A stretch of 64,000 bases of DNA, from contig NZ_JARNTV010000014.1 in the NCBI RefSeq assembly GCF_029433115.1, positions 1 through 64,000 of the forward strand. Reading direction: 5' to 3'. Below, piece after piece: positions 56,420 to 61,731 of this stretch. The position numbers were made by a program, and so were the translations under genes. The notes beneath the pieces are model-generated. The model ran no database searches. It was not told the DNA's origin and saw only the letters and a list, made by a program, of their open reading frames with translations. This DNA is from Sphingomonas sp. AOB5 (lineage in GTDB: Bacteria; Pseudomonadota; Alphaproteobacteria; Sphingomonadales; Sphingomonadaceae). How positions within the stretch are numbered: position 1 is the stretch's first letter; the number at the start of each line of letters is the position of its first letter.

Positions 56420-57262
56420 ATGGAAAAAGGCTATACCGTCGATCCGCTCGCACCGGAGAAACCGCAGTCCGAATGGCGCGATCTGGCGTCGTTCCTGCTC
56501 AAGCTCGCGATCGTGGTCTTCATCGTCCGCAGCTTCATCTTCTCGCCCTTCAGCATCCCCTCCGAATCGATGCTGCCGCGACTGCTGATCGGCGACTATC
56601 TGTTCATCACCAAGTGGAACTATGGCTATTCCAAGCACTCGCTGCCGTTCAGCATCCCGCTGATCCCCGGCCGCGTGTTCCCCGGCACGCCCGAGCGCGG
56701 CGACGTGGTGGTGTTCAAGGCGCCGCCGCAGAACAATACCGACTGGATCAAGCGCGTGATCGGCCTGCCCGGCGACACGGTGCAGATGCGCGATGGCCAG
56801 TTGATCCTGAACGGCAAGGCGATCCCGAAGGAGCCGATCGCCGATTTCGTGCTGCCGATATCGCCCAATTTCACAGCCGAGAAGTGCGGCGATTTCATCG
56901 ACAAGAACGATCCCACGCTCTGCCGCATCCCGCGCTTCCGCGAGACCCTGCCCAACGGCAAGAGCTATGAAGTGCTCGATCAGGGGATGCAGACCTGTTT
57001 CATCCCCACCCGCGTCTGCCCCGACAATACCGACCTCTACACCGTGCCCGCGGGCAGCGTGTTCCTGATGGGCGACAATCGCGACGACAGCGCCGACAGC
57101 CGCTTCCCGCATTCGCAGCAGGGCATCGGCTATGTCCCGATGGAGAATCTGCAGGGCAAGGCGGTGCTCAGCTTCTGGTCGACCGACGGCAGCGCCAACT
57201 GGTTCCTGCCATGGACCTGGTTCAGCGCCGCGCGCTGGAACCGCATCGGGGAAGGGTTTTGA
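56420..57262 (+). CDS. lepB: Signal peptidase I
   Basis: A 280-residue membrane protease: one N-terminal membrane span (about 24-44), nucleophile SIPSESMLP (Ser50), general base WIKRVIGLPGD (Lys111), and GDNRDDSADSRF. It removes signal peptides from exported proteins, including the many in this window. Its last codons overlap rnc (TTGA), starting a lepB-rnc-era operon, a common arrangement in bacteria. Confidence 0.96.
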   Translation: MEKGYTVDPLAPEKPQSEWRDLASFLLKLAIVVFIVRSFIFSPFSIPSESMLPRLLIGDYLFITKWNYGYSKHSLPFSIPLIPGRVFPGTPERGDVVVFKAPPQNNTDWIKRVIGLPGDTVQMRDGQLILNGKAIPKEPIADFVLPISPNFTAEKCGDFIDKNDPTLCRIPRFRETLPNGKSYEVLDQGMQTCFIPTRVCPDNTDLYTVPAGSVFLMGDNRDDSADSRFPHSQQGIGYVPMENLQGKAVLSFWSTDGSANWFLPWTWFSAARWNRIGEGF

Positions 57263-57930
57263 CGGCCTCCCTCGGGGGGTGGATCGAACGGACCTTTGGA
57301 CACGCGCCCGGCAATCTCGGGCCCTATGAGCGCGCGCTGACCCATGGCAGCCAGGCCGCGGCCAATTACGAGCGGCTTGAGTTTCTCGGCGACCGGGTGC
57401 TCGGGCTGGCCATCGCCGAATGGCTGTTCGAACGTTTCGCCGAGGAACCCGAAGGCGCGCTGTCGCGTCGGCTGAACGCGCTGGTGACCGGCGCTGTGTG
57501 CGCGGATGTCGCGCGCGATCTGGGCGTCGTTCCCTATCTGAAGCTCGGCAAGCAGGCGCGCGAGGATGGCGCGCATGACAGCGACAATGTGCTGGGCGAT
57601 GTGATGGAGGCGCTGATCGGCGCCTTCTATCTCGACGCCGGGCTCGACGCGGTGCGCGGTTTCATCCGCAAGGCATGGGCCAGCCGGATCGAAGCGCACG
57701 CGCAGGCGCCCAAGCATCCCAAGTCCGCGCTGCAGGAATGGGCCGCCGCGAACAACCGCCGCCCGCCCGAATATATGATCGTCGACCGATCCGGCCCCAA
57801 CCACGCCCCGCACTTCACCGTGAAGGTGAGCATCGGCAAGCTGGCCGACGCCACCGGCGAAGGCACGAGCAAGGGCGCGGCGGAAACCGCGGCGGCGGCG
57901 GCATTGCTAGAGATACTGGAAAAACGTTGA
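57259..57930 (+). CDS. rnc: Ribonuclease III
   Basis: A 223-residue RNase III: catalytic domain with YERLEFLGDRVLGLAIAEWL and DVMEALIGAFYLDAG, and a C-terminal double-stranded RNA-binding domain (HPKSALQEWAAANNRRPPEY, GTSKGAAETAAAAALLE). It processes rRNA and other double-stranded RNA. The TTG start at 57259 overlaps the lepB TGA (TTGA), and its own stop overlaps era the same way. Confidence 0.95.
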   Translation: MTASLGGWIERTFGHAPGNLGPYERALTHGSQAAANYERLEFLGDRVLGLAIAEWLFERFAEEPEGALSRRLNALVTGAVCADVARDLGVVPYLKLGKQAREDGAHDSDNVLGDVMEALIGAFYLDAGLDAVRGFIRKAWASRIEAHAQAPKHPKSALQEWAAANNRRPPEYMIVDRSGPNHAPHFTVKVSIGKLADATGEGTSKGAAETAAAAALLEILEKR

Positions 57931-58844
57931 ACGACACCCCCACCCCGCCCACCGCCCAGCGCTGCGGCCTGATCGCCGTTCTCGGCGCGCCGAACGCCGG
58001 CAAGTCCACCCTCGTCAATGCGCTGGTCGGGCAGAAGGTGGCGATCGTCAGCCCCAAGGCGCAGACCACGCGGGCGCGGCTGATGGGCATCGCGATCGAG
58101 GGGGATACGCAGCTTCTCCTCGTGGACACGCCGGGCATCTTCACGCCGGAGCGCCGGCTCGACCGCGCGATGGTCGCCGCGGCATGGGAAGGCACCGATG
58201 GCGCCGACGCCATCGCGCTGGTGGTCGACGGCAAGGGCGGGATCGGGCCCAAGGTCCATGCCGTGCTGGATAGCCTGAAGGGCCGCAGCGAGCCGCTGAT
58301 CCTGATCCTCAACAAGGTCGATATTGCCGACAAGCCGCGCCTGCTCGGCACCGCGGCCAAGCTGAACGACATCATCCCCTTTGCCGAGACCTTCTTCGTC
58401 TCGGCTTCGACCGGGGATGGCGTGCCCGAACTCAAGGCGTCGCTGGCCTCGCGCCTGCCCGAATCGCCGTGGCACTTCCCCGAGGATCAGGTGTCCGACG
58501 CGACCGAGCGGATGATCGCGGCGGAAGTGACCCGCGAGCAGCTCTATCTCCAGCTGCGCGCCGAACTGCCCTATGCCAGCGCCGTCGAAACCGAGAAATA
58601 TTCGGAGCGCGAGGACGGATCGGTCGAGATCCACCAGCAGATCCTGGTCGGCCGCGATACCCAGCGGGCCATCGTGCTCGGCAAGGGCGGCAGCCGAATC
58701 AAGGAGATAGGCGCACGCGCACGTCAGGAACTCTCCCAATTGATGGGAGTGAAAGTCCATCTCTATCTTCACGTGAAAGTAAGGCCGGGCTGGGAAGATG
58801 ACCGCTCGCTTTACCGTGAGATAGGGTTGGACTGGGTCGAATGA
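57927..58844 (+). CDS. era: GTPase Era
   Basis: A 305-residue Era: G1 GAPNAGKS, G2 region QTTR, G3 DTPG, G4 NKVD, and a C-terminal KH domain (IVLGKGGSRIKEIGARAR). It binds 16S rRNA during 30S ribosome maturation. Start is a TTG at 57927 overlapping the rnc TGA. It ends in an ATGA overlap with the nitrilase-family gene, an unusual extra member of this operon. Confidence 0.96.
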   Translation: MNDTPTPPTAQRCGLIAVLGAPNAGKSTLVNALVGQKVAIVSPKAQTTRARLMGIAIEGDTQLLLVDTPGIFTPERRLDRAMVAAAWEGTDGADAIALVVDGKGGIGPKVHAVLDSLKGRSEPLILILNKVDIADKPRLLGTAAKLNDIIPFAETFFVSASTGDGVPELKASLASRLPESPWHFPEDQVSDATERMIAAEVTREQLYLQLRAELPYASAVETEKYSEREDGSVEIHQQILVGRDTQRAIVLGKGGSRIKEIGARARQELSQLMGVKVHLYLHVKVRPGWEDDRSLYREIGLDWVE

Positions 58845-59818
58845 CGAAGATCCTCAAGGCTGCAATCGTTCAGGAAACCCCGCTGCCGCTGGCGATCACC
58901 GACGGGATCGAGCGCGCGGTCGGCTATACCAAGGATGCCATCGAGCGCGGCGCGAAGCTGATCGCGTTCGGCGAATGCTTCCTCGGCGGTTATCCCGCCT
59001 GGCTCCAGCATGTATCGGCGCCCGCCTTGTGGGAGCATCCCGGCACCAAGGAACTCCACGCGCTTCTGCTCGAACAGGCGATCCGCGGCGACGATCCGCG
59101 TTTCCAGCAGCTGCAATGGGTGGTCGATATCGCCGGCGTCTGCGTGTCGATCGGCGGCTATTCACGCGTCCGCTCCAGCCTGTTCAACACCCAGTTCCTG
59201 TTCCGCCCGAAAATGCCGGTGCTGGTCCACCGCAAGCTGCTGCCCAGCCATGGCGAGCGGCTGCTGTTCGGCAGCGGCGACGGATCGACGCTGGACGTGC
59301 ACGAAGCCCCCTGGGGCCGGATCGGCCAGCTCAGCTCGAACGAACACTGGATGCCGCTGGCCCGCGCCGCGATGCATCACACCGGCGAGAGCGTCCATGT
59401 CGCCGCCTGGCCGACGGTCGAGGATATCGGCCTGCTCGCCTCGTCGCATTATGCCTTTGAGGGCCGCACCTTCGTGCTGGCCGCGGGCACGGTGCAGCAC
59501 AAGATCGACATCCTGCAGGGCTATCGCATGGCCGGCGGCACAGGGCCGGGCCGCGAGATCCTCGAGCGGCTGCCCGACGGCTATGTCCAGAAGGGCCGCA
59601 GCGCGATCATCGCCCCGGACGGCGTGATGATCGCCCAGACCGGCGAGGATCCGAAGTGCCTGGTTGCCGATCTCGACCTGTCCGAAGTCGAGCAGGCGCT
59701 TTCGACGATGGACGTGGACGGCCAGCATGCCCGGCCCGACATTTTCGAGCTGCGCATCGACCGGCGTCCGCGCAAGGGCATCGTCGATACCGGCGACGAG
59801 GCATCCGAAGCGGCCTGA
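58841..59818 (+). CDS. Nitrilase-superfamily protein lacking the catalytic cysteine
   Basis: A 325-residue protein aligning with nitrilases along its length: FGECFLGGYPAW (catalytic Glu45), HRKLLPSHGER (Lys132, Glu139), ASSHYAFEGRTFVLAAGTVQ, RSAIIAPDGVMIAQ. The nucleophile site, normally GGLxCWEH, reads GQLSSNEHW; Ser166 stands where the cysteine should be and Asn167 replaces the tryptophan. Cysteine hydrolysis is therefore not expected by the usual mechanism. It could be a binding or regulatory protein or use another chemistry. It starts with an ATGA overlap with era. Confidence 0.85.
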   Translation: MTKILKAAIVQETPLPLAITDGIERAVGYTKDAIERGAKLIAFGECFLGGYPAWLQHVSAPALWEHPGTKELHALLLEQAIRGDDPRFQQLQWVVDIAGVCVSIGGYSRVRSSLFNTQFLFRPKMPVLVHRKLLPSHGERLLFGSGDGSTLDVHEAPWGRIGQLSSNEHWMPLARAAMHHTGESVHVAAWPTVEDIGLLASSHYAFEGRTFVLAAGTVQHKIDILQGYRMAGGTGPGREILERLPDGYVQKGRSAIIAPDGVMIAQTGEDPKCLVADLDLSEVEQALSTMDVDGQHARPDIFELRIDRRPRKGIVDTGDEASEAA

Positions 59819-59872: not shown

Positions 59873-61036
59873 ATGACCGCACGAACTCTGCTCCGCACGC
59901 GCGACGGCAATCATGCCCGCGTATCGTTCGCCGAGCTGTTCTTCGATCTGGTGTTCGTCTTCGCGGTCACCCAGCTTTCGCACAGCCTGCTGGCGCATCC
60001 GACCCCGCTGGGCTTCCTCGAGACCGGCATGCTGTTCCTCGCGGTGTGGTGGAGCTGGATCGACACGGCCTGGTGCACCAACTGGCTCGATCCCGAGCGC
60101 ACCCCTGTCCGCCTGATGCTGTTCGGCCTGATGGCATGCGGCCTCGCCATGTCGATCGCGATTCCCCATGCATTCGGCGACCGCGCGACCTTGTTCGCGA
60201 TCGGCTATTCGGCGCTGCAGGTCGGGCGATCGCTGTTCATGATGGGGGCGCTGCGGACGCAGGACCCGGCCAACTACACCAACTTCGTCCGCATCACGAT
60301 CTGGGCGGTGGCGGGCGCCATCTTCTGGCTCGCTGGCGCCTTTTGCCCCGAATGGCGGATCGCGCTGTGGGGCGTCGCCCTGCTGCTCGACAGCAGCGCG
60401 CCTGCGCTCGGCTTCCGCGTGCCGGGCATCGGCAAGTCGGATTCGAGCGACTGGGTGGTCGAGGGCGGCCATGTCGCCGAGCGGTGCGGCCTGTTCGTGA
60501 TCATTGCGCTAGGCGAATCGATCCTGATCACCGGAGCGACCTTCAGCGAGATCGCATGGACCCAGCCGGTGCTGCTGGGCTTCGCGTCAGCTTTCGCGGC
60601 GACGATCGCGATGTGGTGGATCTATTTCAACATCGGCGCCGAACGCGGCAGCCACCATATCGAGCATTCGGACGATCCCGGCGCGATCGCGCGGCTGGCC
60701 TATACCTATCTCCATCTGCCGATCGGCGCGGGCATCGTGCTGACCGCCGCATCGGACGAGATGGTGCTGGCGCATCCCGACGGGCATCTGGCGCCGCTCA
60801 CCGCCTTCTGCCTGGTCGGCGGCCCGGCGCTTTATCTGCTCGGCAATCTCCTGTTCAAGCGCGCCATCGGCAAGCGCATCCCGTTGTCGCATCTGGTCGG
60901 CCTCAGCCTGTCCGCAGCGCTTGGCGCATCGTTCGTGCTGCACCCGACACCGTTGCAGCTCTCGATCGGATCGAGCGCGATCCTGGTGCTGGTCGCGATG
61001 TGGGAGACCTTGTCTGCCCGGCGCGGTCAGGCCTGA
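59873..61036 (+). CDS. Low temperature requirement protein A (LtrA) family membrane protein
   Basis: A 387-residue multi-span membrane protein starting with the LtrA hallmark VSFAELFFDLVFVFAVTQLSH, followed by WWSWIDTAWCTNWLDP, and later ERCGLFVIIALGESILITGA. The family was named from a Listeria mutant unable to grow in the cold; its transport or enzymatic role is unclear. It converges with the sirtuin gene, overlapping it by ten bases. Confidence 0.9.
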   Translation: MTARTLLRTRDGNHARVSFAELFFDLVFVFAVTQLSHSLLAHPTPLGFLETGMLFLAVWWSWIDTAWCTNWLDPERTPVRLMLFGLMACGLAMSIAIPHAFGDRATLFAIGYSALQVGRSLFMMGALRTQDPANYTNFVRITIWAVAGAIFWLAGAFCPEWRIALWGVALLLDSSAPALGFRVPGIGKSDSSDWVVEGGHVAERCGLFVIIALGESILITGATFSEIAWTQPVLLGFASAFAATIAMWWIYFNIGAERGSHHIEHSDDPGAIARLAYTYLHLPIGAGIVLTAASDEMVLAHPDGHLAPLTAFCLVGGPALYLLGNLLFKRAIGKRIPLSHLVGLSLSAALGASFVLHPTPLQLSIGSSAILVLVAMWETLSARRGQA

Positions 61037-61731
61037 GCGAGCAGCCCGTCGACCCATTCGGGCACCAGTACCCCTGCGGGTCCGCGGCGGCTCTCCGCGA
61101 ACCAGCCGCTGCCTTCGGAGGGGTCGAGGTTCATCTCCAGCGTGTCCGCGCCATGATAGCGTGCGGTCTGGACAAAGCCCGCGGCGGGATAGACCGCGCC
61201 CGAGGTGCCGATCGACACGAACAGGTCGGCACGCGAGATCGCCCGCTCGATCTCCTCCATCCGGTACGGCATCTCGCCGAAGAACACGATGTCGGGACGG
61301 AGCGTCGCCGCGCCGCAATTGCCGCACACGCTGCCCGGCGGAAGCGACTCTTCCCACGCCCCGCTATCGCCGCAGCGCGCGCATAGCGCCGATTTCAGCT
61401 CGCCATGCATATGGATCAGCCGCTTCGACCCCGCACGCTCATGCAGATCGTCGACATTCTGGGTGACCAGCAGCAGTTCGCCGGTCCATTCGGCATCGAG
61501 CCGCGCCAGCGCCCGGTGCGCCGCATTGGGCTCGACCTCGCCCAGCTTCGCGCGGCGCTCGTCATAGAAGCGATGCACCAGCTCGGGATCGCGATGCAGC
61601 GCCTGCGGGGTGCACACATCCTCGACCCTATGCCCCTCCCACAAACCACCGGGGCCGCGAAAGGTGGCGATGCCGGATTCGGCCGAGACGCCGGCACCGG
61701 TGAGGATCACGATGTTGCGGATAGCGGTCAT
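61027..61731 (-). CDS. cobB: NAD-dependent protein deacylase (sirtuin, CobB)
   Basis: A 234-residue SIR2 protein: NAD motif TGAGVSAESGIATFRGPGGLW, TQNVDDLHERAGS, catalytic HMHGEL, and a zinc site made of CARCGD and CGNCGAATLRP. It removes acetyl or acyl groups from lysines using NAD+. The gene is 50 bp from the divergent DUF2007 gene. Confidence 0.94.
   Translation of the reverse strand: MTAIRNIVILTGAGVSAESGIATFRGPGGLWEGHRVEDVCTPQALHRDPELVHRFYDERRAKLGEVEPNAAHRALARLDAEWTGELLLVTQNVDDLHERAGSKRLIHMHGELKSALCARCGDSGAWEESLPPGSVCGNCGAATLRPDIVFFGEMPYRMEEIERAISRADLFVSIGTSGAVYPAAGFVQTARYHGADTLEMNLDPSEGSGWFAESRRGPAGVLVPEWVDGLLAQA

Follow-up and report, generated by a model that had tools for sequence, protein, structure and literature searches.

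A nitrilase-like gene behind era in Sphingomonas that lacks the catalytic cysteine and probably encodes a pseudoenzyme

The nitrilase-like gene and its product

The whole stretch of DNA that we analyzed, referred to here as the window, comprises 64,000 nucleotides from Sphingomonas sp. AOB5. It contains an open reading frame for a 325-residue protein of the nitrilase family, preceded by lepB, rnc, and era (Table 1). The start codon of the nitrilase-like gene overlaps the stop codon of era, an arrangement that makes translational coupling likely. The probable start codon of era, a TTG in our reading, overlaps the rnc stop codon in the same manner, as TTGA (57927-57930), so that rnc, era, and the nitrilase-like gene would be joined by successive 4-base overlaps. 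A scan for promoters and terminators was uninformative: it gave a single terminator-like site and nothing resembling a promoter, which is less than shuffled sequences gave. The gene for an LtrA-family membrane protein that lies directly downstream was seen at this position in just 3 of the 62 loci compared, whereas the Sir2-family deacetylase gene beyond it has a counterpart downstream of era in 41 of the 62, with or without a nitrilase-like gene.

Table 1. Features of the era locus and codons of the altered catalytic site (positions in the window)
Feature	Position	Strand	Basis
lepB (signal peptidase I)	56420..57262	+	Pfam Peptidase_S26
rnc (RNase III)	57211..57930	+	Pfam Ribonuclease_3, dsrm
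era (GTPase with KH domain)	57927..58844	+	Pfam MMR_HSR1, KH_2; TTG start likely (our reading)
ATGA overlap of era stop and nitrilase-like start	58841..58844	+	Sequence: ATG 58841-58843, TGA 58842-58844; translational coupling likely
Cys-less nitrilase-family gene (putative pseudo-nitrilase), 325 aa	58841..59818	+	ORF; Pfam CN_hydrolase; clade of 24 Cys-less copies
Glu45 codon (NIT4 E76 equivalent)	58973..58975	+	Invariant in 24/24 Cys-less and 47/47 Cys-bearing rows
Lys132 codon (NIT4 K163 equivalent)	59234..59236	+	Invariant in 24/24 Cys-less and 47/47 Cys-bearing rows
Glu139 codon (NIT4 E170 equivalent)	59255..59257	+	Invariant in 24/24 Cys-less and 47/47 Cys-bearing rows
Ser166-Asn167 codons TCG AAC, at the Cys-Trp place of active nitrilases	59336..59341	+	Alignment, codon reading
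LtrA-family membrane protein	59873..61036	+	Pfam
Sir2-family deacetylase	61027..61731	-	

The protein matches the Pfam profile CN_hydrolase (PF00795) over residues 6-285 (E = 1.1e-29; 104 bits against a cut-off of 23.2). Its sole NCBIfam match is to TIGR04048, the Nit6803 (Nit1C) family, at 123.6 bits, and it falls far short of the equivalog cut-off of 502.6. Nitrilases in the PDB align to it over up to residues 3-314. At E 0.001 the protein matched 13 PDB sequences, each of them named as a nitrilase, a cyanide hydratase, or a cyanide-degrading enzyme. By its full-length profile match the protein is a member of the nitrilase superfamily, with a fold predicted from the matches to solved nitrilases; an AlphaFold model built on a four-sequence alignment had a mean pLDDT of 43.3.

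A Glu-Lys-Cys triad is believed to be common to nitrilase members (PMC1199592), and in Arabidopsis NIT4 residues E76, K163, E170, and C197 are given as the catalytic residues or tetrad (PMC6637149). Alignment to NIT4 (6i00) places E45, K132, E139, and S166 of the window protein at these four positions. The site reads GQLSSNEHWMP, as against ICWEHWMP in relatives. The open reading frame, the Pfam match, and this alignment agree with the first-pass annotation, which had described a nitrilase-family protein that keeps Glu45, Lys132, and Glu139 and has Ser166-Asn167 in place of Cys-Trp. Compared with the branch-1 nitrilases (Nit6803/TIGR04048, NIT4, and the cyanide hydratases and dihydratases), the protein is alike in full-length homology, the Glu-Lys-Glu residues, an EHWMP-like motif, and a C-terminal RPD-F region; it differs from them in lacking the nucleophilic cysteine and the following tryptophan, in an altered PTHG loop, and in its score below the TIGR04048 cut-off.

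Distribution and descent of Cys-less and Cys-bearing copies

We searched 295 genomes of the genus at E 1e-60 and obtained a match in 47, the window's own genome included; for the 46 other matches, about 9 kb of surrounding sequence (less at contig ends) was used to read the catalytic site and the neighboring genes. The cysteine is missing from 24 of the 47 (again with our own), and all 24 genes lie directly downstream of era. Eighteen genomes carry an era-linked copy with Cys-Trp (L107-L122, L124, and L129), and four have a Cys-bearing copy with no era in the examined stretch (L123, L125, L127, and L128). A contig-end fragment without the motif (L126) and a 45-residue contig-end piece beside era (L057, genome G275) were left out of the counts, and L059, L060, and L061, whose contigs equal in length those of G269, G462, and G467 and are taken to be identical with them, were counted once. 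Verified era-linked copies occur in 42 of the 295 genomes, about one in seven.

The era-linked Cys-Trp nitrilases occupy the same place as the window gene, mostly with the same 4-base overlap, but keep the motif that the window protein has lost: LICWEHWMP is intact in 18/18, one LICW variant having A before I. They share 54-60% identity with the window protein; the range within the Cys-less set is 57-96%. The overlap is found in 22 of the 24 Cys-less and 16 of the 18 Cys-bearing era-linked copies (exceptions L086, L091, L108, and L109). Since both kinds show it, the coupling does not depend on whether the cysteine is present; the coupling to era proposed earlier holds for 22 of the 24 clade members but is not specific to them.

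All 24 Cys-less reading frames encode 319-334 residues without an internal stop or frameshift. Position 166 is serine in 23 of them and alanine in one (L105, genome G365), so that the serine, which the first-pass annotation had suggested might be fixed, is nearly but not entirely so. Position 167 is never tryptophan (T in 11, G in 4, D in 4, N in 3, and A in 2), and position 165 varies among A, I, V, and S. The nearest genome, G447, encodes a protein 96% identical to that of the window, with the same TCG AAC codons.

A tree of 75 proteins groups all 24 Cys-less rows in a single clade (support 100/99) that is nested among the 18 era-linked Cys-Trp copies and has the era-linked Cys-bearing pair L110 and L116 as its sister (98/82; joint node 99/93). 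The alignment of orthologues shows Cys-bearing era-linked relatives only outside this clade, and the recent mutation or sequencing error that had been considered at the outset does not account for the missing cysteine, as G447 shares the TCG AAC codons and 23 other genomes also lack it. A loss confined to the species of the window is likewise ruled out by the spread over 24 genomes.

The deepest Cys-less copy, L106 (genome G453), sits on a long branch and uses AGC for its serine, whereas the other 22 serines are encoded by TCG or TCC and the alanine of L105 by GCC. No single step converts AGC to TCN, so two separate cysteine losses may have occurred close to the root of the clade; alternatively, one class of serine codon may have passed into the other through an intermediate. 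L105, also on a long branch (0.39), is alone in having Ala-Ala in place of Cys-Trp, and its Glu-Lys-Glu trio is intact.

Beyond the genus, we searched 397 genomes of the family (a few of them from the genus) at E 1e-100 and obtained 57 matches in other genera, the best of them no more than 57% identical to the window protein. Cys-Trp is present in all 42 of these 57 that were read. In the flanks of about 1.5 kb around 29 other-genus Cys-bearing copies era was not found, L021 being cut by a contig end. A plasmid search returned 730 records, all below 60% identity, and the 20 listed among them included only distant nitrilases.

We also considered a Cys-type partner nitrilase encoded in the same genome. 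In our reading of their sequences, the four other CN_hydrolase proteins of the window's genome resemble a carbamoylputrescine amidase, a Nit2-like protein, Lnt, and NAD synthase, and a second nitrilase match at E 1e-3 was absent from five other Cys-less genomes (G208, G243, G254, G269, and G274). A partner is thus without support in these six genomes; the remaining 18 Cys-less genomes were covered at E 1e-60 only.

The distances between the nitrilase-like proteins correlate with those between the Era proteins of the same genomes (Mantel r 0.85 in the clade, 0.61 in the Cys-bearing set, and 0.81 over all 42; 0/999 permutations each), which fits largely vertical descent. On the Era tree, the Cys-less genomes are split, at a cost of 2 changes, or 5 when genomes without the gene are added, and L091 falls beside the Cys-bearing pair; some transfer, or weak resolution of the tree, is possible.

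From a set of 101 genomes of the genus we took for comparison 20 without an era-linked copy, mostly those with the Era closest to that of the window; several have an era that resembles the window's no less than does the era of genomes carrying the gene. A tblastn search at E 1e-3 of the stretch around era found no gene remnant in any of the 20, and one (G202) has a distant nitrilase (32%) elsewhere in its genome. Genomes with and without the gene are interleaved on the Era tree, with 7 presence/absence changes, 6 of them forced by well-supported branches. In the 4.6 kb that follow era, a Sir2-family ORF was called in 16 of 24 Cys-less, 12 of 18 Cys-bearing, and 13 of 20 non-carrier genomes, counts obtained by a mechanical choice of ORFs and in part from stretches shorter than 4.6 kb. 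Because this neighbor is frequent in all three groups, the nitrilase-like gene appears to be an optional addition, inserted between era and downstream sequence that varies.

Selection and the residues kept or released

The Cys-less clade is under purifying selection. A codon model gave an omega of 0.102 for the 24 Cys-less rows (319 codons) and 0.108 for the 18 era-linked Cys-bearing rows; without L105 and L106 the Cys-less value was 0.095. For era of the same genomes, omega was 0.061 in the Cys-less and 0.060 in the Cys-bearing set. The median pairwise dN/dS (NG86) was higher for the Cys-less than for the Cys-bearing copies (0.333 and 0.252), with synonymous sites near saturation and both values far below 1.

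As a reference for conservation we used 47 Cys-bearing rows, the 18 era-linked copies and 29 from other genera, in which 100 positions are near-invariant (at most one exception). At 60 of these 100, all 24 Cys-less rows carry the residue of the reference set; among the 60 are E45, K132, E139, E168, W170, M171, and P172, and E45, K132, E139, E168, H169, and W170 are each invariant in 24/24 Cys-less rows. With so many near-invariant positions kept, the retention of the Glu-Lys-Glu trio is not striking: by our arithmetic, all three would be kept by chance about 1 time in 5.

Twenty-five of the 100 positions fall below 80% in the Cys-less clade. These released positions include C166, W167, I165, W143, T46, H107, R194, C210, and H295, and eight of them fall within 134-145, a loop that corresponds in the alignment to the PTSLER motif of NIT4, which is counted among the NIT4 pocket motifs (PMC6637149). 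No column of the Cys-less alignment has cysteine in more than 5 of 24 rows; a clade-wide replacement was not found, and a nucleophilic cysteine that had migrated to another position is ruled out for the clade.

A probable pseudoenzyme and its alternatives

We consider it likely, from the alignments and trees, that the product of the gene is a pseudoenzyme whose ancestor was an active, era-coupled nitrilase of Sphingomonas. The pseudo-nitrilase proposed in the first-pass annotation gains by the fixation of the cysteine loss in a clade of 24 genomes under purifying selection, and the protein probably has a new, non-enzymatic job. With the cysteine, the thioester chemistry of nitrilases would have been lost. 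Its present role would then be one of binding: the protein may act as a scaffold in oligomeric form, or it may bind a small ligand (an amide, an acid, or a nitrile) that the retained Glu-Lys-Glu residues might hold. Active nitrilases form oligomers (PMC6637149), those of the same branch building spirals or filaments, and the oligomer is probably kept; what we say of pocket and oligomer draws on sequence alignment and the literature. The most likely effect of the overlap with era is simply to set the level at which the nitrilase-like gene is expressed, and none of our results connects the protein to the function of Era.

The hydroxyl that is kept at the site in 23 of 24 members is a counterpoint to a pseudoenzyme, and the main alternative builds on it: the protein would still be an enzyme, a serine nitrilase or amidase with Ser166 as the nucleophile beside Glu-Lys-Glu. 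The serine is held while its neighbors 165 and 167 vary, and E45, K132, and E139 are invariant. Exchange of the cysteine for serine usually abolishes nitrilase activity, which we count against a serine enzyme. Moreover, L105 has alanine at the site with the other three tetrad residues intact, implying that serine is not needed as a nucleophile there, and Trp167, the PTHG loop, and W143 were released along with the cysteine. On balance we regard a serine enzyme as unlikely. Slightly less probable still is a chemistry that does without the cysteine and uses Glu-Lys-Glu, for example the hydration or lysis of a small substrate. The charged trio and E168-H169-W170 are fully kept under purifying selection, as such a chemistry would have it, but we found no precedent for it, and the residues may serve the stability of the fold, given that conservation extends to 60 of the 100 near-invariant positions.

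That the gene is decaying and remains open only through its overlap with era is very improbable. The gene is repeatedly absent in relatives, with at least 6 presence/absence changes on well-supported branches of the Era tree, but an omega as low as that of the Cys-bearing copies largely refutes decay, none of the 24 copies is frameshifted or stopped, and none of the 20 examined genomes without an era-linked copy holds a remnant. We give hardly any credence to the idea, raised in the first-pass annotation, that the protein is a partner of Era in ribosome maturation: the gene lies directly behind era in every Cys-less copy, mostly with the overlap, and its distances track those of Era, but Cys-bearing copies share the overlap, common descent alone would produce the correlation, only 42 of 295 genomes carry a verified era-linked copy, and the 20 non-carriers retain no trace of one.

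Returning to the pseudoenzyme, a fuller account may be sketched, although we hold it tentatively and think it rather unlikely in this specific form. A nitrilase captured by the lepB-rnc-era operon would have turned non-catalytic, keeping the trio and probably the oligomer while nucleophile and pocket loop were rebuilt, and would now serve as a nitrilase-fold sensor or as the scaffold of a filament, with era translation, and hence growth, determining how much of it is made. The antiphage reverse transcriptase DRT1 (PMC13275509) offers a precedent for a nitrilase fold that is put to use in a regulated filament and not simply for catabolism; as described there, however, DRT1 keeps the tetrad and its nitrilase is activated, whereas the window protein has neither the nucleophile nor a reverse transcriptase. 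Pseudoenzymes in general retain an enzyme fold under selection after the loss of catalytic residues, as the Cys-less clade does. Clade-specific nitrilase operons such as Nit1C have been described (PMC1199592), in passages that mention no era-linked one. Among the matches listed in open-licence PMC papers none describes a pseudoenzyme of the nitrilase superfamily, and the two papers that contain both 'pseudoenzyme' and 'nitrilase' use the words in unconnected contexts.

These observations caution against annotating the Cys-less era-linked genes as nitrilases. With active and Cys-less versions at one genomic place in related species, the presumed step from enzyme to pseudoenzyme could be compared side by side, in proteins in which most other conserved residues remain intact.
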